DNA of 28,357 nt, taken from the IMG/VR virus record IMGVR_UViG_3300037185_000069, positions 1 through 28,357 of that record. One strand, given 5' to 3'. Each line of letters begins with the position of its first letter. Position 1 is the stretch's first letter. Positions 4,957 through 28,357 of this stretch are shown in pieces. The notes under the pieces are model-generated. The model saw only the letters and a list, made by a program, of their open reading frames with translations, had not been told where the DNA came from and did not search any database. This DNA comes from a virus. Made by a program: the position numbers and the translations under genes.

Positions 4957-5511
4957 ATGAAAACTATAACATTAAATTGTACCCAATGTGGCGAACCTTT
5001 TGAGAGAAATGTCCACCAATACAAATATTGTAATATAAAGAAAAACATGAAACCTTTTTGTGGTAGGCGGTGTCAAACTATTTATAGGAATAAACACATG
5101 GCACCAGAGTCGTGGAAAAAATTATTTGATATAAAAAGTAGAGCCGGAAACAGAAAAGATACGTTTTCTTCCTTCAAATATTTCATTACTAAATGTAAAG
5201 AGAGAAAAAAACATAAAGGATATGAATACAATATAGACCTTCAATACTTAAAAGAATTATGGAATAATCAAAAAGGAACGTGCCCATATACAGGTTTTAA
5301 GATGGTATTACCGGAAACAACTAAATCACGTTCTCAAACACATTCTCTCAAAAAAGCCAGTTTAGATAGAATTGATTCAACAAAAGGATATATTAAAGGA
5401 AATGTTGAGTTTGTTTGTCTATTGATAAATATGGCAAAAAATAATGCCACTAAAGAAGAAGTTTTGAGGTTTATTGAAGAATTAAAAATTGGTAGCCCTG
5501 CTGGGATTTGA
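4957..5511 (+). CDS. HNH homing endonuclease
   Basis: A 184-aa endonuclease. The N-terminus carries a zinc-finger-like group (CTQCGEPF, CNIKKNMKPFCGRRC). The C-terminal HNH-type core contains CPYTGFKM and SLDRIDSTKGYIKGNVEFV, where Asp/His-like and Asn positions form the beta-beta-alpha metal site. The same ASLDRIDSTKGY signature occurs in the HNH gene at 13795, so the two are related. The start at 4957 follows a CTATTTAT element by 5 nt; an upstream reading from 4921 is unlikely. Its 3' end runs 22 nt into the antisense tRNA-Arg(CCU), so it sits tightly against a tRNA gene. Confidence 0.88.
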   Translation: MKTITLNCTQCGEPFERNVHQYKYCNIKKNMKPFCGRRCQTIYRNKHMAPESWKKLFDIKSRAGNRKDTFSSFKYFITKCKERKKHKGYEYNIDLQYLKELWNNQKGTCPYTGFKMVLPETTKSRSQTHSLKKASLDRIDSTKGYIKGNVEFVCLLINMAKNNATKEEVLRFIEELKIGSPAGI

Positions 5512-5567
5512 ACCCAGAACTAAACTTTAGGAAAGTTTTATTATATATCCAATTTCACTACAGAGCC
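5490..5567 (-). tRNA. tRNA-Arg (anticodon CCU)
   Basis: Acceptor GGCTCTG/CAGGGCT with discriminator A and an encoded CCA. Anticodon stem AAACT/AGTTT around loop TTCCTAA gives CCU, which reads AGG. T arm CTGGG-TTCAAAT-CCCAG. The D stem has one mismatch. Its 3' end overlaps the HNH stop region, and 2 nt separate it from the next tRNA. Confidence 0.88.
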
Positions 5568-5569
5568 AT

Positions 5570-5656
5570 TGGTACACCGAAAGGGACTTGAACCCTTATA
5601 GCCCTTACGGGACACAGTTTAGAAAACTGCTGCCTATCCAATTAGACTACCGGTGC
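5570..5656 (-). tRNA. tRNA-Arg (anticodon UCU) with long variable arm
   Basis: Acceptor GCACCGG/TCGGTGT with A and an encoded CCA. D stem GTCT/AGGC. Anticodon stem GCAGT/ACTGT with loop TTTCTAA gives UCU, which reads AGA. T arm AAGGG-TTCAAGT-CCCTT. The variable region is 16 nt with a CCC/GGG hairpin, which is class II size and unusual for Arg. It forms a two-tRNA unit with tRNA-Arg(CCU) for AGA/AGG codons, which are common in these genes. Confidence 0.85.
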
Positions 5657-6370: not shown

Positions 6371-7350
6371 ACTGTTTTTGGTCGGTTATGGTGCTCGTGA
6401 TTTTGGCACCAACGGGCACCACAAATATCGCATCGCCTATCGTGCTTTTGGAGACACTCTTTGCCGCCACAAATTGGACATCGGTGCTCAATCTTTATGT
6501 CGTTGCGAATGCCGTATTTCTTCAACTCTTTGCTGTTGAGTTGGCGTTGGAGAGTGATTTTGATAGAGCTGTAATTGTGGCGGTTCCAATAGTAAACGCC
6601 TTCTTCGTCATCAATCAGCCTGTCTTTAGGGCCAATGTCTCTGCCACTGTGTCGCCATTCACCGTGCGAAGGAACGTAGTATTCGCCATTGACTACAATC
6701 CAAGTAGGCGGGTCGTCACGGTTGACTTTCCACGCTTTGTAATTACGGCCGAAAAACTTCATCGTCTTAGTCTCAGGCGGAATGAAGTGAACAATTTTCT
6801 TCCAATGAAGGCCGTCAATCTCTATAATGTCCGATTCGGCCTTTTTGGCTTTTACTTCAAACCAAGTGCCTTTGAGCTTGAGAAGCTGGTGATAGTCACC
6901 CAAAATTCGCATAGTCTTGGCTTGTTCCTCTTCCCGGCGTTTCTTCTCATTGACCTGCTTTGGTCTGTGAAAGCAAAGAGCCTTGGTTTTGGGATGAACG
7001 TAAAAAACTTGTCCATATCCATTGCGATAATCTTCAATGCTCTTTTCATTGCCATTGTAAGACCAGTTGTCGTAAAACCAAACTTTGCCATCTTTCTCAA
7101 AGGTATTGAGAATCACCGTCTGAGCAATTCGTTCGCGGGTTTTGTGTGCTTCGGGCACCCATTCCAAGTGAACGAATTCAGAGAAAACTTCGTTCCAGTC
7201 AGTTCCAACCCGCGACATTAGGAAGCGGTGAACTTTGTTGTAGGGATAGTCAGACCCCCAGTAGTGCCTATGCCCATCAGGAAGGCGAACAACATCACGG
7301 CTGGGAAGTTCTTCTACAACTTCGGGGGACTCATTTGCCAGATTTTTCAT
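6367..7350 (-). CDS. Unknown 327-aa protein with C-terminal zinc ribbon
   Basis: The family is not recognised. The N-terminal two thirds are rich in Trp, Tyr and charged residues with no catalytic motif I can name. The C-terminus has CPICGGKEC and CDICGARWC, a four-Cys zinc ribbon with a His-rich tail (QNHEHHN). ATG 7350 is chosen over two in-frame TTGs because the promoter -10 (TACTAT) ends 10 nt before it. It overlaps the downstream interrupted gene by ATGA and leads an operon that runs to 5822. Confidence 0.75.
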   Translation of the reverse strand: MKNLANESPEVVEELPSRDVVRLPDGHRHYWGSDYPYNKVHRFLMSRVGTDWNEVFSEFVHLEWVPEAHKTRERIAQTVILNTFEKDGKVWFYDNWSYNGNEKSIEDYRNGYGQVFYVHPKTKALCFHRPKQVNEKKRREEEQAKTMRILGDYHQLLKLKGTWFEVKAKKAESDIIEIDGLHWKKIVHFIPPETKTMKFFGRNYKAWKVNRDDPPTWIVVNGEYYVPSHGEWRHSGRDIGPKDRLIDDEEGVYYWNRHNYSSIKITLQRQLNSKELKKYGIRNDIKIEHRCPICGGKECLQKHDRRCDICGARWCQNHEHHNRPKTV

Positions 7351-7356
7351 CAACAA

Positions 7357-7641
7357 TTACATAGTATCAGGTTTTCGTTTTTCGTCAAGCCTTCTCCACG
7401 CCTTTAGCAAAATTTCATAATTCAAACCAGGCATTTCCATCTCAAATGGCATAGGTGCCGGTTCAAGATCTGGCTCTGGTCCTAACACTATAGGTATAGT
7501 CGGGCTGTTGATTAGGTCATTGAGGCGATTACGCCACCACCTTTGGGAACGCAACCGCCCGTCAATCGTTATCTTACTCCAAAGCTTGTGGTGCAGAACC
7601 CACACTAAGAAGCCAATAGAGTCAAGGCTATTAGGTTGCAT
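7357..7641 (-). CDS. Unknown 94-aa protein
   Basis: A small protein with a basic Trp/Arg-rich first half (GRLRSQRWWRNRLNDL) and a Pro/Glu-rich linker (PEPDLEPAPMPFEMEMP). The family is not recognised. It overlaps the upstream membrane-protein gene by 37 nt. Its last codons contain the promoter of the next operon (7361-7388), so this gene ends one transcription unit. Confidence 0.6.
   Translation of the reverse strand: MQPNSLDSIGFLVWVLHHKLWSKITIDGRLRSQRWWRNRLNDLINSPTIPIVLGPEPDLEPAPMPFEMEMPGLNYEILLKAWRRLDEKRKPDTM
7361..7388 (-). promoter_or_regulatory. sigma70-type promoter for the zinc-ribbon operon
   Basis: Minus strand: TTGACG (7388-7383), 16 nt, TACTAT (7366-7361), then 10 nt to ATG 7350. 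It lies inside the 3' end of the upstream gene. Confidence 0.7.
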
Positions 7642-8072
7642 AACAGGTGAAGCGTATTGTCATGGATAATGTAAAGCCACATCGTAATGAAAAACAGCCG
7701 TGGCTTTCCATATTTTTCCATTTCTGGGTCATTCACCATAGGCTTCAGCGAATTATATGGAGAATCGTCATAATAGCCCGTGGTATCACAATACCCAAAT
7801 GCTGGATAACCATTGGGGAAATGGTTGCGGCACCAAACCAACCGCCTAAGAATGAAATGCCATCGGTCAAGAATGAAATGAGTGACGCCTATGAACAACA
7901 GAGCTTTCCACGATAGAGTCAGTATGGTGAAGCAGGCGGTATAAACCAGAACATGGACTAAGCAGTTGAACGATTTCTTGCTCTTGTTCATTGCCATCCA
8001 GTCGGATTGTAGCCAAAAGTCGCCTACGAAGTGACAAAGCAGAAACATTATTGGATAATATAACACGTTCAT
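7605..8072 (-). CDS. DUF3307-like membrane protein
   Basis: A 155-aa inner-membrane protein with about four hydrophobic segments: near residues 5-20, 40-65 (VHVLVYTACFTILTLS), 67-80 and 128-150. The start CHFVGDFWLQSDWMAMNK matches the HxxxDFxLQxxWMAxNK signature of DUF3307, a small membrane family common in phages and bacteria with unknown function. It overlaps its upstream neighbour by ATGA, so it is the second gene of the operon led by 8069-8335. Confidence 0.75.
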   Translation of the reverse strand: MNVLYYPIMFLLCHFVGDFWLQSDWMAMNKSKKSFNCLVHVLVYTACFTILTLSWKALLFIGVTHFILDRWHFILRRLVWCRNHFPNGYPAFGYCDTTGYYDDSPYNSLKPMVNDPEMEKYGKPRLFFITMWLYIIHDNTLHLLCNLIALTLLAS

Positions 8073-8373: not shown

Positions 8374-9285
8374 TCAGAGTTCGCCTATTGTAGTTGTGCC
8401 CGGTGGCGAAGGCAATCTTACAGTCGTCGGTATGGTAGGCGTATCTTCGTTAGTTTGCTGACATGCTACCCAATTATCCGCTATCTGTTGGGCAGTGTTG
8501 GGAGCACTCTGAATGCCTCCTATATTTATGGTGCTATAGAATTGTGGATTGATAGTTGTGTTAACATACTGTATGTTGGCATTAGGCGTAACACTATTTG
8601 TCACAACAGAAAATTCTGTCAAATCAAAGTCTGATATTCGCGGGTTGAAAGGGCCTGACTCAATCGTAACGGACCTTGGATAGCCTTCTTTCTTTGGAGT
8701 AGGCGACTTCTTCAACGCCTCCATTATCTCATTGAACTTAGGCAATTCAGTAGTAGGAATGGAAAAGCCTTTCTCCATGTATTTTTTCAGGTGAACCGCC
8801 GTAGCTACGGAGTCGCGGACGTTGTTGAAGCGTATTACCCTGCGCCTAACGTCCTCAAGGGCTGTGTCGCCTACAACGATACGTTCGCCATCGAACCCAA
8901 ACTGACAAGCGGTGAAATCAAACCCATCAAGCAGTTCCTCTATCCTGCTCCAGAACCTAAAAGAAACGAATTGGACAGCGATTGTTTTGTTGTATTCCTT
9001 ATCGCAAATGTGAAATTGGTAAGTCGTGTTATATTTGTTCTTAGTTTCGCCTACAACGTGATAGCAATAGGGGATTGAGTTCATCACCCTTTTATGCCGT
9101 TCAAGCTGTTCAGCGTCTCTAAAAAAGAAATCTATGTCGTGAGCAATAGGCCAGTCCTCTATAGCCTTCCACACAGAGCCGCCAGCCAACCAAGGGCCGT
9201 CTGGCTCTGGCCGCGGTAGGCGTCTCAGGACTCTACATAGCTCGGAGTCCTGATTGATAACATTCTGGAATAGCTCAGTTCTCAC
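8374..9285 (-). CDS. Nucleotidyltransferase-fold protein
   Basis: A 303-aa protein. GGS (35-37) and DID (50-52), spaced like the GG/GS...DxD signature of the DNA polymerase beta/poly(A) polymerase superfamily, are followed by LLDGFDFTACQFGFDG, which may hold the third acidic residue. It therefore probably transfers a nucleotide to an RNA, protein or small molecule. The last 100 residues are Thr/Asn/Pro-rich, low in complexity, and look like a flexible tail. It overlaps the secreted-protein gene by ATGA and ends its operon just before the promoter at 8343-8370. The substrate is unknown. Confidence 0.72.
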   Translation of the reverse strand: MRTELFQNVINQDSELCRVLRRLPRPEPDGPWLAGGSVWKAIEDWPIAHDIDFFFRDAEQLERHKRVMNSIPYCYHVVGETKNKYNTTYQFHICDKEYNKTIAVQFVSFRFWSRIEELLDGFDFTACQFGFDGERIVVGDTALEDVRRRVIRFNNVRDSVATAVHLKKYMEKGFSIPTTELPKFNEIMEALKKSPTPKKEGYPRSVTIESGPFNPRISDFDLTEFSVVTNSVTPNANIQYVNTTINPQFYSTINIGGIQSAPNTAQQIADNWVACQQTNEDTPTIPTTVRLPSPPGTTTIGEL

Positions 9286-9635
9286 TTTACGACTTTGAAA
9301 TAGAATCTGCCGAACAGATTGGAAACTACTCCAACAACGAGATTGGTTTTTGGCTTAGACCAACCGTTCACAAAAAGCGTATTCATGTATGTGCCGTTAA
9401 CGTCTGTATTTAGCTTCAATATGAAATAATTGGTTTCGCCGGGAGAAAGTGTAATCGTGGATGGCGTAACACTGATAGGCGAAGTGAAGCTAGGCGAATC
9501 GTCATATAGCATCCTTGCGGTGAATGTTACCGGCTCTTTTTTGTAGCCGTAAACCATGTAAGTTTTCTCAATGTCCCCCGCCAAAGAGGCGATGCAGGAT
9601 AGAGCCAATAATGCAACTGCGATTTGTTTTTTCAT
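9282..9635 (-). CDS. Secreted beta-rich protein with signal peptide
   Basis: A 117-aa protein with a classical Sec signal peptide: KK at the N-terminus, hydrophobic core IAVALLALSCIASLAG, and likely cleavage near residue 20. The mature part is beta-rich (SVTPSTITLSPGETNYFILK), like an immunoglobulin or Abp2-type periplasmic domain. The Cys at 14 does not fit a good lipobox. It is overlapped by four bases at both ends (ATGA), which ties its expression to the cytoplasmic neighbours. A role at the host envelope is an inference. Confidence 0.7.
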   Translation of the reverse strand: MKKQIAVALLALSCIASLAGDIEKTYMVYGYKKEPVTFTARMLYDDSPSFTSPISVTPSTITLSPGETNYFILKLNTDVNGTYMNTLFVNGWSKPKTNLVVGVVSNLFGRFYFKVVK

Positions 9636-10729: not shown

Positions 10730-11369
10730 GTTTTTCCTTCCAATGATGTTCTCTATGGCAATTAGCACAGAGCAATACACATTTCATTATTTCTGTTTCT
10801 ATTGTTTCCCATTTCCTACACCAAATCTTTTTTATGGCAGAGTCCTTTTCCATAGGATCTTTGTGGTGAAAATCTAAAGCACCAGTACATTTATTATATC
10901 TACATTTGACGCATTTACCACCTAATATTTCAATAGCACGTAACCTATTCTTTACTTTTCTCTTTACGTCATCAACTCTACCTTGTTTTTTCCATATTTT
11001 TGATGGACATTTCCAATATTCTCTATTATTTTTAGAAAAATTATTTCTACATTCTAACGAACAAAAATGAAACTTATTAGAAAAAGCATCAGGCATTATG
11101 TAAATATCATTTTTACAAAAATCACATTTGACATTTTTGCCTCTTCGTTTCTTGAAATTGGCACATTTATGGCATAACCTATTTTCTCTGGTTGCTACAT
11201 CATACATCCATTTAGATGAATAATACAAATCTTTTTTACACTTAACACAATTTCTTTTCCATTTCTTTTTGCTTATAATATTTTCGCATTCTATCTTCAT
11301 TGATTTGTTTTTTGTTTCGTTGGTAATATTCTCTTCGCCAACGTCGTTTTGCGTTAAGTTGCTCATCAT
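10716..11369 (-). CDS. HNH endonuclease with zinc ribbons
   Basis: The open frame has an ATG at 11369, but recognisable protein begins near KKKWKRNCVKCKKDLYYSS. Three CxxC groups follow (CVKCKK, CHKC, CDFC with HFCSLEC), then the HNH core: CVKCRYNKC, LDFHHKDP and LLCANCHREHH (HH, N and H positions). The 51-codon leader ORF (11397-11242) overlaps its start, and the HNH frame is +1 to the leader. The true initiation site is uncertain: a frameshift from the leader or an internal start. It overlaps the ASCH gene by 14 nt. Confidence 0.82.
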   Translation of the reverse strand: MMSNLTQNDVGEENITNETKNKSMKIECENIISKKKWKRNCVKCKKDLYYSSKWMYDVATRENRLCHKCANFKKRRGKNVKCDFCKNDIYIMPDAFSNKFHFCSLECRNNFSKNNREYWKCPSKIWKKQGRVDDVKRKVKNRLRAIEILGGKCVKCRYNKCTGALDFHHKDPMEKDSAIKKIWCRKWETIETEIMKCVLLCANCHREHHWKEKHEMY

Positions 11370-11397
11370 ATGTTTTGTATTTTAGTTTTCTGCCCAT
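11242..11397 (-). CDS. 51-codon basic leader ORF (copy B)
   Basis: ATG 11397 (MGRKLKYKTYDEQLNAKRRW...) to TAA 11242. It is the same length as copies A and C and alignable without gaps. Its first 60 bases are close to copy A at the DNA level, including the upstream ATACTTAT element, which shows a recent common origin. It overlaps the HNH frame, which lies in +1. It is strongly basic with YYxRN and RMxxYY helical motifs. Confidence 0.65.
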   Translation of the reverse strand: MGRKLKYKTYDEQLNAKRRWRREYYQRNKKQINEDRMRKYYKQKEMEKKLC

Positions 11398-11402
11398 ATG
11401 AT

Positions 11403-11410
11403 ATAAGTAT
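11403..11410 (-). promoter_or_regulatory. ATACTTAT start-proximal element
   Basis: Minus-strand ATACTTAT, 5 nt before ATG 11397 of leader copy B. Confidence 0.5.
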
Positions 11411-11438
11411 ATTACTCCAATCAAAAAACTCCAACAAA

Positions 11439-11663
11439 TTACAAAATAACTATATTACATTCGCCTAAACTTTTTCCCTCTCCGTTGTCTTGATAAATCA
11501 AAGTTTGCTTATTGTATTTTCTTTTCTCTAAAACATCTGTTTTTATTAGTGGCGATGGAATACAATATCCCCAGTCCTCTCCATTATCTCCAGAAATGTG
11601 AAAATAAAGTTCTTTCTCAGGACATAGTTTCTTTAGTTTGTCAATCCACTCTTTTGTTTTCAT
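11439..11663 (-). CDS. Unknown 74-aa protein
   Basis: The family is not recognised. A small mixed alpha/beta protein (MKTKEWIDKLKKLCPEKELY...) with a GDNGEDWGYCIPSP segment. Its start diverges from the Pro-rich gene at 11704, and both start in a T-rich region. It lies 41 nt upstream of leader copy B, so it and the ASCH gene may have been adjacent before the endonuclease arrived. Confidence 0.55.
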   Translation of the reverse strand: MKTKEWIDKLKKLCPEKELYFHISGDNGEDWGYCIPSPLIKTDVLEKRKYNKQTLIYQDNGEGKSLGECNIVIL

Positions 11664-25812: not shown

Positions 25813-25841
25813 ATACTAACACAGATTTAGAGAATAGTCAA
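25813..25841 (-). promoter_or_regulatory. sigma70-type promoter for the lipoprotein operon
   Basis: Minus strand: TTGACT (25841-25836), 17 nt, TAGTAT (25818-25813), then 8 nt to ATG 25804. Confidence 0.7.
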
Positions 25842-26527
25842 GTTGCTATATTTTTAATAGCTATATCAACTATAGATTTTATTATGTCCAAAAACTTTCC
25901 ATCTCTTTCCTTTTTAAGATATTTTACATTGTGGGTGTCTATTACACAAAGGCCTATATTATTTTTAGAGCATAACTGAAACTTTCTATCATCATTATTT
26001 TTTGTTCTTTTAAGTTTGTCATCGCCATAAATTGGCTCATAATGAAAAATGCCGTTAAACTCAAATGCTAATTTCAGTGATGGTATGTAAATATCCAATT
26101 CAGCATTTATAGTATCGGTTCTATTGTAATGAATTTCCAAAGTAGGATATAATATTGTAAGTTGATCCTCAATCCATTTTTCTAATTTTGACCTTCTAGT
26201 TCCATATTCTTTATGTGTGTTATGATATGTTGCTGAACAAGAGGATGAGCAAAAGTGGTGGTTATTTCGCTTTATATCATTATTATGCTTTGTAAATTCT
26301 TTTTTACACTGTTCACATTTTATAACAGTAGCACCCGTTTTTGTTTTATATTCACCAAAACATACTTTTGAACAAAAATCACAAGAATGTCTGCTAGTTT
26401 TTTTTATACCCATTTGAATAGAACATTTTAACTTGTTAAAGGACTTACCACAATTTTTACACTCTAATGGTATTAAATCTCTGCTTTTCTTGTTGTCAAA
26501 ATCTTTATATGGTATTAAAAGCTTCAT
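25838..26527 (-). CDS. EDxHD/Vsr-like homing endonuclease with zinc fingers
   Basis: A 229-aa protein. The N-terminal half has three Cys groups (CKNCGKSF, CDFCSKVC, CEQCKKEF...CSSSC) as zinc fingers. The C-terminal half is a Vsr/PD-(D/E)xK fold: RSKLEKWIEDQL (N-terminal helix with Glu), ELDIYIPSLKLAFEFNG (Asp and Glu strands) and CVIDTHN near the end. This is the layout of I-Bth0305I-type (EDxHD) homing endonucleases, a fourth nuclease family in this window. A CTATTTAT element is 4 nt before ATG 26527. Its stop region overlaps the promoter of the lipoprotein operon. Confidence 0.82.
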   Translation of the reverse strand: MKLLIPYKDFDNKKSRDLIPLECKNCGKSFNKLKCSIQMGIKKTSRHSCDFCSKVCFGEYKTKTGATVIKCEQCKKEFTKHNNDIKRNNHHFCSSSCSATYHNTHKEYGTRRSKLEKWIEDQLTILYPTLEIHYNRTDTINAELDIYIPSLKLAFEFNGIFHYEPIYGDDKLKRTKNNDDRKFQLCSKNNIGLCVIDTHNVKYLKKERDGKFLDIIKSIVDIAIKNIAT

Positions 26528-27053: not shown

Positions 27054-27148
27054 GCCTCCGTAGTTTAACGGTTAGAACGCTAGCCTTATAAGCTAGATAA
27101 GCACTAGATTAGTGCACGGTATTGGTTCAAATCCAGTCGGAGGTACCA
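27054..27148 (+). tRNA. tRNA-Ile (anticodon UAU) with long variable arm
   Basis: Acceptor GCCTCCG/CGGAGGT, A, encoded CCA. Anticodon stem CTAGC/GCTAG with loop CTTATAA gives UAU, which reads AUA. T arm ATTGG-TTCAAAT-CCAGT. The variable region is about 24 nt with a perfect GCACT/AGTGC hairpin, which is Ser/Leu/Tyr size but on an Ile anticodon. Confidence 0.88.
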
Positions 27149-27151
27149 GAT

Positions 27152-27232
27152 TGCGGTGTGATAGAAACGGCATCTTGCCATGCTCATAACGTGGTGCCTT
27201 TGGCCTACTTGGTTCGACTCCAAGCTCCGCTA
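27152..27232 (+). tRNA. tRNA-Met-like (anticodon CAU), divergent
   Basis: Good T arm (CTTGG-TTCGACT-CCAAG) and anticodon arm (CCATG/CGTGG, loop CTCATAA, CAU). The acceptor TGCGGTG/CTCCGCT has two T-T mismatches, the D arm folds poorly, CCA is not encoded, and the variable region is about 13 nt with GCC/GGC. It could be Met, lysidine-type Ile, or decaying. Confidence 0.55.
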
Positions 27233-27399
27233 GAACGTCATAGTAAACGCCTCCACGCGGCGACGTTCGGATAACGCTAAGTTTACTAATTTGTGCCGGT
27301 GGCTAGGGCGCCGGGATAAAATAACAAAAACGGAGTTGCGGCTGTGTTTCCTTTCATTTTAAAGGATAGCGGTTTGTGACGATACGGATACCCAGCATT
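27233..27399 (+). ncRNA. Structured non-coding stretch between tRNAs
   Basis: There is no ORF. GAACGTC (27233-27239) pairs with GACGTTC (27262-27268); AGTAAAC (27242-27248), inside that loop, pairs with GTTTACT (27281-27287). These pairings interleave as a pseudoknot, and CGCC/GGCG (27248-27251, 27259-27262) is a competing hairpin. Further along are a CCGG...CCGG hairpin (about 27296-27317) and TCCTTT/AAAGGA. No known family is recognised. Confidence 0.4.
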
Positions 27400-27516
27400 G
27401 CCACTGTGGCGGAATTGGAAGACGCAGCAGACTTTTTCACAGCGGATAATAAATTTATCCGTTGACCAAAATCTGCTTCCTTAACAGGAGTGTGGGTTCG
27501 ACTCCCACCAGTGGCA
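27400..27516 (+). tRNA. tRNA-Leu with a 33-nt insertion in the anticodon loop
   Basis: Class II tRNA-Leu body: acceptor GCCACTG/CAGTGGC, D arm GCG...CGC with GGAATTGGAA, variable hairpin TCCT/AGGA, T arm GTGGG-TTCGACT-CCCAC, discriminator A, no encoded CCA. The anticodon stem GCAGA (27427-27431)/TCTGC (27472-27476) encloses 40 nt rather than 7. Removing 27435-27467 leaves loop CTTAAAA (UAA, Leu); a boundary shifted by one base would give CAA, also Leu. The insert has a CGGATAA/TTATCCG hairpin with a TAAA loop. Confidence 0.75.
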
Positions 27517-27796: not shown

Positions 27797-27873
27797 GGCA
27801 CCGTAGCCCAATGGCAGGAGGCAATAGTTTCAAAAACTATCCAGTGTCGGTTCGAGTCCGACCGGTGCTACCA
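27797..27873 (+). tRNA. tRNA with anticodon CAA (Leu) on a class I body
   Basis: Acceptor GGCACCG/CGGTGCT, A, encoded CCA. D stem GCC/GGC. Anticodon stem ATAGT/ACTAT, loop TTCAAAA gives CAA, which reads UUG. T arm GTCGG-TTCGAGT-CCGAC. The variable region is only 5 nt, although Leu tRNAs of bacteria are class II. Confidence 0.85.
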
Positions 27874-28205: not shown

Positions 28206-28357
28206 ATGGACCTCTACAAGCGATACTCACTGGATAGCATCTTAACAAAGCAACTGTAAAACTTGCTCAAGAAATTTTTGTATTCAACGAAACTTGGACA
28301 ATTGAAAAACTCCAATCAGTAGCAAATGCGGTAACTTACACAACCGATAATGGACAA
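28206..28357 (+). pseudogene. Gene start with an apparent frame break, runs off the window
   Basis: ATG 28206 starts 1 nt after the previous stop and reads MDLYKRYSLDSILTKQL before TAA 28257. From about 28250 the -1 frame is open to the window end with coding-like sequence (ATVKLAQEIFVFNETWTIEK and more). Joining ...ILTK to ATVKLAQ needs one base change. It could be a frameshifted gene, a slip site or a sequencing error. Confidence 0.4.

Follow-up and report, generated by a model that had tools for sequence, protein, structure and literature searches.

What is a 33-nt insert doing in the anticodon loop of an otherwise well-formed tRNA gene? The question is raised by a tRNA-Leu gene carried by a viral record of 28,357 bp, which was analysed at its full length (hereafter the window). 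A sequence-only reading had described this gene as a class II tRNA-Leu with an anticodon loop of 40 nt, and had pointed out that removing 33 nt would restore the loop CTTAAAA. Both statements were borne out. The Rfam tRNA model scored the gene at 45.9 bits, against a gathering score of 29, and placed the insertion in the anticodon loop (27432-27471); taking out positions 27435-27467 leaves CTTAAAA, with anticodon UAA. ARAGORN did not call the gene as it stands and returned tRNA-Leu(TAA) once the insert was taken out in silico. The parts of the gene are the following:

27400-27516, plus strand: complete interrupted class II tRNA-Leu(UAA) gene (Rfam RF00005, 45.9 bits), with acceptor, D-arm, anticodon stem, long variable arm, T-arm and discriminator A
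27400-27434, plus strand: 5' exon, whose 3' end is C32-U33-U34 (CTT), from the sequence
27427-27431, plus strand: anticodon stem, 5' strand GCAGA, pairing with 27472-27476
27435-27467, plus strand: 33-nt insert of the hairpin class (class A, see below), a putative mini-intron made of TTTCA, a 10-bp stem with TAAAT loop, and ACC
27440-27449, plus strand: 5' strand of the 10-bp stem of the putative intron, CAGCGGATAA, from folding and class A geometry
27455-27464, plus strand: 3' strand of the same stem, TTATCCGTTG, from folding and class A geometry
27468-27516, plus strand: 3' exon, starting with A35-A36-A37-A38 (AAAA), from the sequence
27472-27476, plus strand: anticodon stem, 3' strand TCTGC, from folding

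The hairpin within the insert, first put at 7 bp, turned out to have 10 bp (CAGCGGATAA / TTATCCGTTG, loop TAAAT); it lies between a 5-nt 5' linker and a 3-nt 3' linker and closes on a loop of 5 nt. RNA folding of the whole tRNA gave a z-score of -5.4, with 0 of 200 shuffled sequences folding as well. The predicted structure comprises a bulged C32, a 4-bp UUUU/AAAA helix, a 3x3 loop and the 10-bp stem, the 4-bp helix being variable among the linkers of class A members. The 3' flank, CAAAA, is also compatible with a restored CTCAAAA loop (anticodon CAA), and most relatives allow UAA only. The identical tRNA gene is present in a second contig (L007, IMGVR_UViG_3300037108_000067), which shares 1284 bp with the window at 100% identity, so that an assembly error is unlikely. 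Three neighbouring tRNA genes of the window have features of their own. The tRNA-Ile(UAU) at 27054-27148 has an unusually long, class II-like variable region with a 6-bp hairpin (GCACTA GAT TAGTGC). A tRNA-Met called by ARAGORN at 27151-27233 falls under the Rfam gathering score and has an odd variable region. Finally, 27797-27873 is a class I tRNA (short variable loop) with anticodon CAA, similar ones being annotated as tRNA-Leu in actinobacterial phages.

The sequence-only reading had proposed comparing the same tRNA in related phages, and this comparison revealed short inserts at the same place in dozens of viral contigs. Relatives were found through pattern scans of viral contigs followed by cloverleaf filters, and ordinary tRNA-Leu(UAA) genes from the same scan served as the control set. 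The tRNA-Leu(UAA) genes recovered have intact cloverleafs and inserts of 26-57 nt, nearly all located between U34 and A35, in contigs of up to 318 kb. Most scans demanded CTT and AAAA, and the specificity of class A for UAA may therefore be overstated; one scan that dispensed with this demand and used the D-arm and T-arm only yielded few true cases. Its matches were mostly another tRNA-like element that has no anticodon stem. This separate family was seen in L291 (for example at 9025-9134, 9327-9431 and 11360-11500), L154, L237, L240, L241, L256 and L301, with several copies per contig; its members combine a tRNA-Leu-type D-arm and T-arm with acceptors of the AGTCAGG..CCTGACT type and a middle part of 50-110 nt without anticodon stem.

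A strict Leu(UAA) pattern run against 84,980 bacterial and archaeal species genomes matched 4 MAG contigs, the true cases being L362, L363 and L365. Thus, as far as this pattern shows, the feature is mainly viral. BLAST searches of 50,697 GenBank phage records (INPHARED) yielded no interrupted relatives. The short inserts fall into two structural classes, one consisting of hairpins (class A, that of the window) and the other of tRNA-like units (class B). Genes of class A and similar ones behaved in ARAGORN as the window gene does: 0 of 24 were called when interrupted and 24 of 24 after in-silico removal. The inserts of L104, L124, L161, L210, L212, L284 and L303 belong to neither class; that of L124 has 79 nt, that of L303 has 52 nt and precedes C32, and those of L161, L212 and L284 form an ACGG..CCGT group. 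Two further candidates, L356 and L364, were dropped as chance or unrelated matches.

The 19 distinct class A inserts share the layout CTT, 3-6 nt, 10-bp stem, loop, 3-4 nt, AAAA. On average 10.0 of the 10 stem positions pair, versus 6.2 when strands are swapped between members (2000 shuffles, maximum 7.5); since a full 10-bp stem was the entry criterion for the set, it is the exchange control, and not the figure of 10.0, that constitutes the evidence. The stem sequences are widely divergent, and both partners have changed in 9 of the 10 pairs. Stems of at least 9 bp were found in 52% of all inserts as opposed to 1.2% of shuffled ones, a figure that is conservative for class A because class B inserts are counted in as well. 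The tRNA-Leu(UAA) genes that harbour class A inserts in L354 and L355 have a short variable loop, which indicates that the tRNA body is not the determinant for this class. About 3 nt separate each of the two junctions from a helix on its 5' side, the anticodon stem in one case and the stem of the insert in the other, and this two-fold-like geometry suggests that class A might be read by a symmetric nuclease. The internal loop conserved between the two helices would also suit a mini-ribozyme in the insert, self-cleaving or self-splicing, with a ligase sealing the exons. We regard this as highly improbable, since the linker nucleotides vary widely among class A members, no known ribozyme family was matched, and the insert is too small for known splicing ribozymes.

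The insertion point is one that we take to be that of the group I introns in cyanobacterial tRNA-Leu(UAA), and a remnant intron was among the possibilities raised at the outset. On that view a self-splicing intron homed into tRNA-Leu(UAA), and what is left of it, now dead or spliced in trans, is the insert. Besides the shared site, homing endonucleases lie close by, and an insert of about 290 nt in L208, with similarly long ones in L183 and L222, stops directly before AAAATC at the same position. By eye, from the letters alone, these three long inserts look like group I introns; in Rfam, none of those in L183, L185, L208 and L222 was called as such. The one in L222 apparently holds an HNH-type reading frame. 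Several properties of the short inserts nonetheless make this origin decidedly unlikely. The window insert, at 33 nt, has no P3-P9 core, produced zero Rfam group I matches at E<=10, shows no visible internal guide pairing with GACUU and ends in C; across the set the 3' ends are C, U, A or G, with no fixed G. Moreover, decay would not be expected to leave stems of a fixed 10 bp that covariation maintains, and class B inserts display the anatomy of a tRNA. What stands of the proposed link to group I introns is the common site, with seemingly full-size group I introns there in some phages. The remnant identity is not supported, the inserts being structured families of their own that have neither a group I core nor the U.G/omega-G arrangement.

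Class B inserts consist of a 7-bp acceptor-like stem, an abutting 5-bp T-stem with a 7-nt loop and a 3' NCCA, or else of a near-complete tRNA; the T-loop is often GGCAGCA and sometimes the canonical TTCRANN. They occupy the anticodon loops of six tRNA species, Leu(UAA), Glu, Lys, Gln, Asp and Ile, with junctions at four loop positions (after C32, U34, position 35 and C36). If the cuts are placed just 5' of the inner acceptor and just 3' of the inner CCA, 22 distinct inserts each leave a loop of exactly 7 nt. When residual loop lengths from 2 to 13 were scanned, those of 2-6 and 8-13 were essentially anticodon or acceptor register slips of the same genes. After excision in silico, 24 of 25 genes were called as the expected tRNA. 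Only one of the inner units was called as a tRNA on its own, and they thus appear to retain features for processing rather than for decoding. The features of an RNase P substrate, a 12-bp acceptor/T-stem stack with a 7-nt loop and a 3' NCCA, are present in 24 distinct class B inserts, 23 of which end in CCA and one (L365) in CCGA; the window insert, whose 10-bp hairpin starts 5 nt inside, lacks them. Acceptor pairing in class B amounts to 6.67 of 7 positions versus 3.9 in the exchange control.

In L008, a 77-nt tRNA-like unit splits the loop of tRNA-Glu(UUC) after C36; a second Glu gene, too, was seen to contain a nested unit. An Enterococcus phage record (L541) carries the empty site corresponding to L008, an uninterrupted tRNA-Glu; aligned with the joined exons of L008, it agrees at 68 of 72 bases. 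As this alignment is gapless (149-77=72), it independently confirms the 77-nt boundary. Nested inserts of 105 nt were also observed in tRNA-Lys(UUU) of L069 (5263-5439, reverse-strand coordinates) and L393 (5799-5975); given its length, the inner unit may itself be interrupted. Phages with class B interrupted tRNAs further include carriers of ROOL RNA genes (L005, 8150-8715; L069, 5801-6394).

Genes for homing-type endonucleases recur beside the interrupted tRNAs. The window itself has one such gene by its tRNA cluster:

25838-26527, minus strand: homing-endonuclease-like gene (PHROG 559/3339/9084), which has PHROG families in common with the gene that flanks the interrupted tRNA-Leu (class A) of L130

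At distances of up to 1.2 kb from interrupted tRNAs we found at least 7 HNH and at least 3 GIY-YIG genes, plus DUF559-like genes in L130 and L155. Control neighbourhoods had two HNH entries among their top families; HNH, GIY-YIG and DUF559-like genes are commoner near the interrupted genes. This suggests that the inserts may be able to spread between tRNA alleles. The same flanking endonucleases, together with the many tRNAs that phages possess, might be read as signs of a mobile hairpin or tRNA tolerated in a dispensable phage tRNA, the gene being dead. Such a pseudogene is unlikely to be the answer: the exon stems are perfect, the insert stems covary, and the lengths and junctions of the inserts are constrained.

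A further gene of the window is truncated at the contig end:

28253-28357, plus strand: C-terminal fragment of an RNA ligase, 35 aa, clipped by the contig end and resembling the ligase of L007, FIFDETWTIETLQAIANLAEYTTDNGQ

It is in this part that window and L007 diverge abruptly, at 28250, the window end encoding a different, truncated ligase tail; the divergence over 28250-28357 reflects either strain variation or a contig chimera. In L007, three RNA-repair genes follow within 7.3 kb downstream of the tRNA-Leu. The first (1802-2824) is intact and encodes an Rnl5-like RNA ligase (Pfam RNA_ligase, PHA02142 OB fold) that matches the Naegleria gruberi RNA ligase with an E of 1e-36. The second (5152-5628) specifies a Pnkp-type polynucleotide kinase, with T4 Pnk among its PDB matches and nearest to PDB 4gp6/4gp7; these entries, labelled metallophosphoesterase, are presumably the kinase domain of Clostridium thermocellum Pnkp. 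The third (6953-7762) is a calcineurin-like phosphatase for which a PDB sequence search gave no match.

Among 47 related viral records, an Rnl1-type ligase was above cut-off in 13, an Rnl2-type ligase in 19 and a kinase in 24; RtcB was found in 0 of 47, as was the archaeal EndA-type endonuclease (PF01974), in a search that covered viral records only. Some case records, possibly fragments, contain no ligase above cut-off. In contigs of at least 100 kb an RNA ligase was present in 9 of 10 controls and 13 of 16 cases; in those of 9-100 kb, in 12 of 30 cases versus 4 of 31 controls (p 0.02). Corrected for contig size, the enrichment is borderline (permutation p 0.054). Because large control phages usually have ligases as well, the presence of a ligase alone is weak evidence. 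RNA ligases of jumbo phages have been assigned to the repair of damaged tRNA (PMC7824862).

Proximity of RNA-repair genes, and the position of the insert in the very loop that anticodon nucleases target, would equally suit a decoy, as the sequence-only reading had also envisaged. The unspliced tRNA-like RNA would act as a bait for, or a sensor of, host anticodon nucleases and would never take part in translation. That part may still hold, and yet we give it little probability: none of the cloverleaf stems or long variable arms has been lost, and the exact canonical 7-nt loop, which a decoy does not require and leaves unexplained, is restored by 22 of 22 distinct nested inserts.

The mini-intron that had likewise been proposed is the reading that the evidence favours, by its recurrence in many phages, its constant hairpin geometry, the restoration of CTTAAAA and the RNA-repair cassette nearby. 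It is probable, judging from these features, that the precursor tRNA contains the 33-nt insert as a short intron, which is excised by an endonuclease, with the exons sealed by phage RNA-repair enzymes. Excision, nucleases and ligation are all steps that we infer from the DNA. The endonuclease would cut 3' of U34 and 5' of A35, and an RNA ligase, helped by kinase and phosphatase in the case of ends that require healing, would join the exons into a tRNA-Leu(UAA) with the loop CUUAAAA. For class A, cleavage might leave 2',3'-phosphate and 5'-OH ends, which would suit the kinase and phosphatase of L007, the window's relative. For class B, RNase P would probably cleave at the 5' end of the inner acceptor, and a second cut, of the tRNA 3'-processing type, would follow the inner CCA; the exon ends would then bear 3'-OH and 5'-P, which Rnl-type ligases use directly as substrates. 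Against this scheme, a 3' cut after CCA that spares the 3' exon from trimming is not standard in all bacteria. Taken together, we lean towards the view that phages have evolved protein-spliced tRNA introns in two forms, a hairpin cut by a symmetric nuclease and a nested tRNA-like unit cut by processing enzymes, with an RNA ligase sealing both. A split tRNA may mature under phage control only, or may offer host anticodon nucleases an altered target.

The insert appears to represent a kind of small tRNA intron that had not been described before and was not known in bacteria or phages. In the open-access full-text literature, we found no account of nested tRNAs or of phage tRNA introns of this kind, and as of 2014 every known phage intron lay within a protein gene (PMC3984707). 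The prior view is that bacteria and their viruses have self-splicing tRNA introns only. If the proposal is correct, cut-and-ligate splicing of tRNA arose again outside archaea and eukaryotes, in two unrelated intron designs; the RNA ligases and kinases of large phages would gain a purpose beyond damage repair, and tRNA genes overlooked by standard annotation would be explained. With a nested tRNA, an intron would arise in a strikingly simple way, since much of the excision machinery is already in every cell.

Among known systems, the phage inserts resemble the protein-spliced introns of archaea and eukaryotes (bulge-helix-bulge, EndA/TSEN) in being short, in lying in the anticodon loop, and in having two helix-referenced cuts and a separate ligation. 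As in such introns, removal in silico restores a canonical tRNA (24/24 for class A and similar genes, 24/25 for class B). A review lists protein-spliced tRNA introns as absent from eubacteria (PMC4090602). The phage inserts differ in their position, 34|35 and not 37|38, in their bacterial-type tRNA body and in the apparent absence of the bulge-helix-bulge consensus of 3-nt bulge, 4-bp helix and 3-nt bulge, although the two-fold-like layout of class A recalls bulge-helix-bulge logic; nor did any of the 47 viral records have the PF01974 endonuclease of the archaeal system. With the group I introns of tRNA-Leu(UAA) they share insertion after U34 and association with homing endonucleases, but those introns have 200-300 nt, whereas the phage inserts have about 26-57 nt, no catalytic core and no fixed 3' G. 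Class B is reminiscent of tRNA punctuation and t-elements, which RNase P and RNase Z process, its acceptor, T-arm and CCA being of the kind read by RNase P and 3'-processing enzymes; unlike t-elements, it sits inside the anticodon loop of another tRNA, and its flanks must be religated. Finally, the ligase, kinase and phosphatase close to the tRNA in L007 are akin to T4-type repair (Pnkp and Rnl1) and to bacterial Pnkp, except that the ligase is nearest to the Naegleria RNA ligase and that repair would here serve a programmed intron and not the damage left by an anticodon nuclease.
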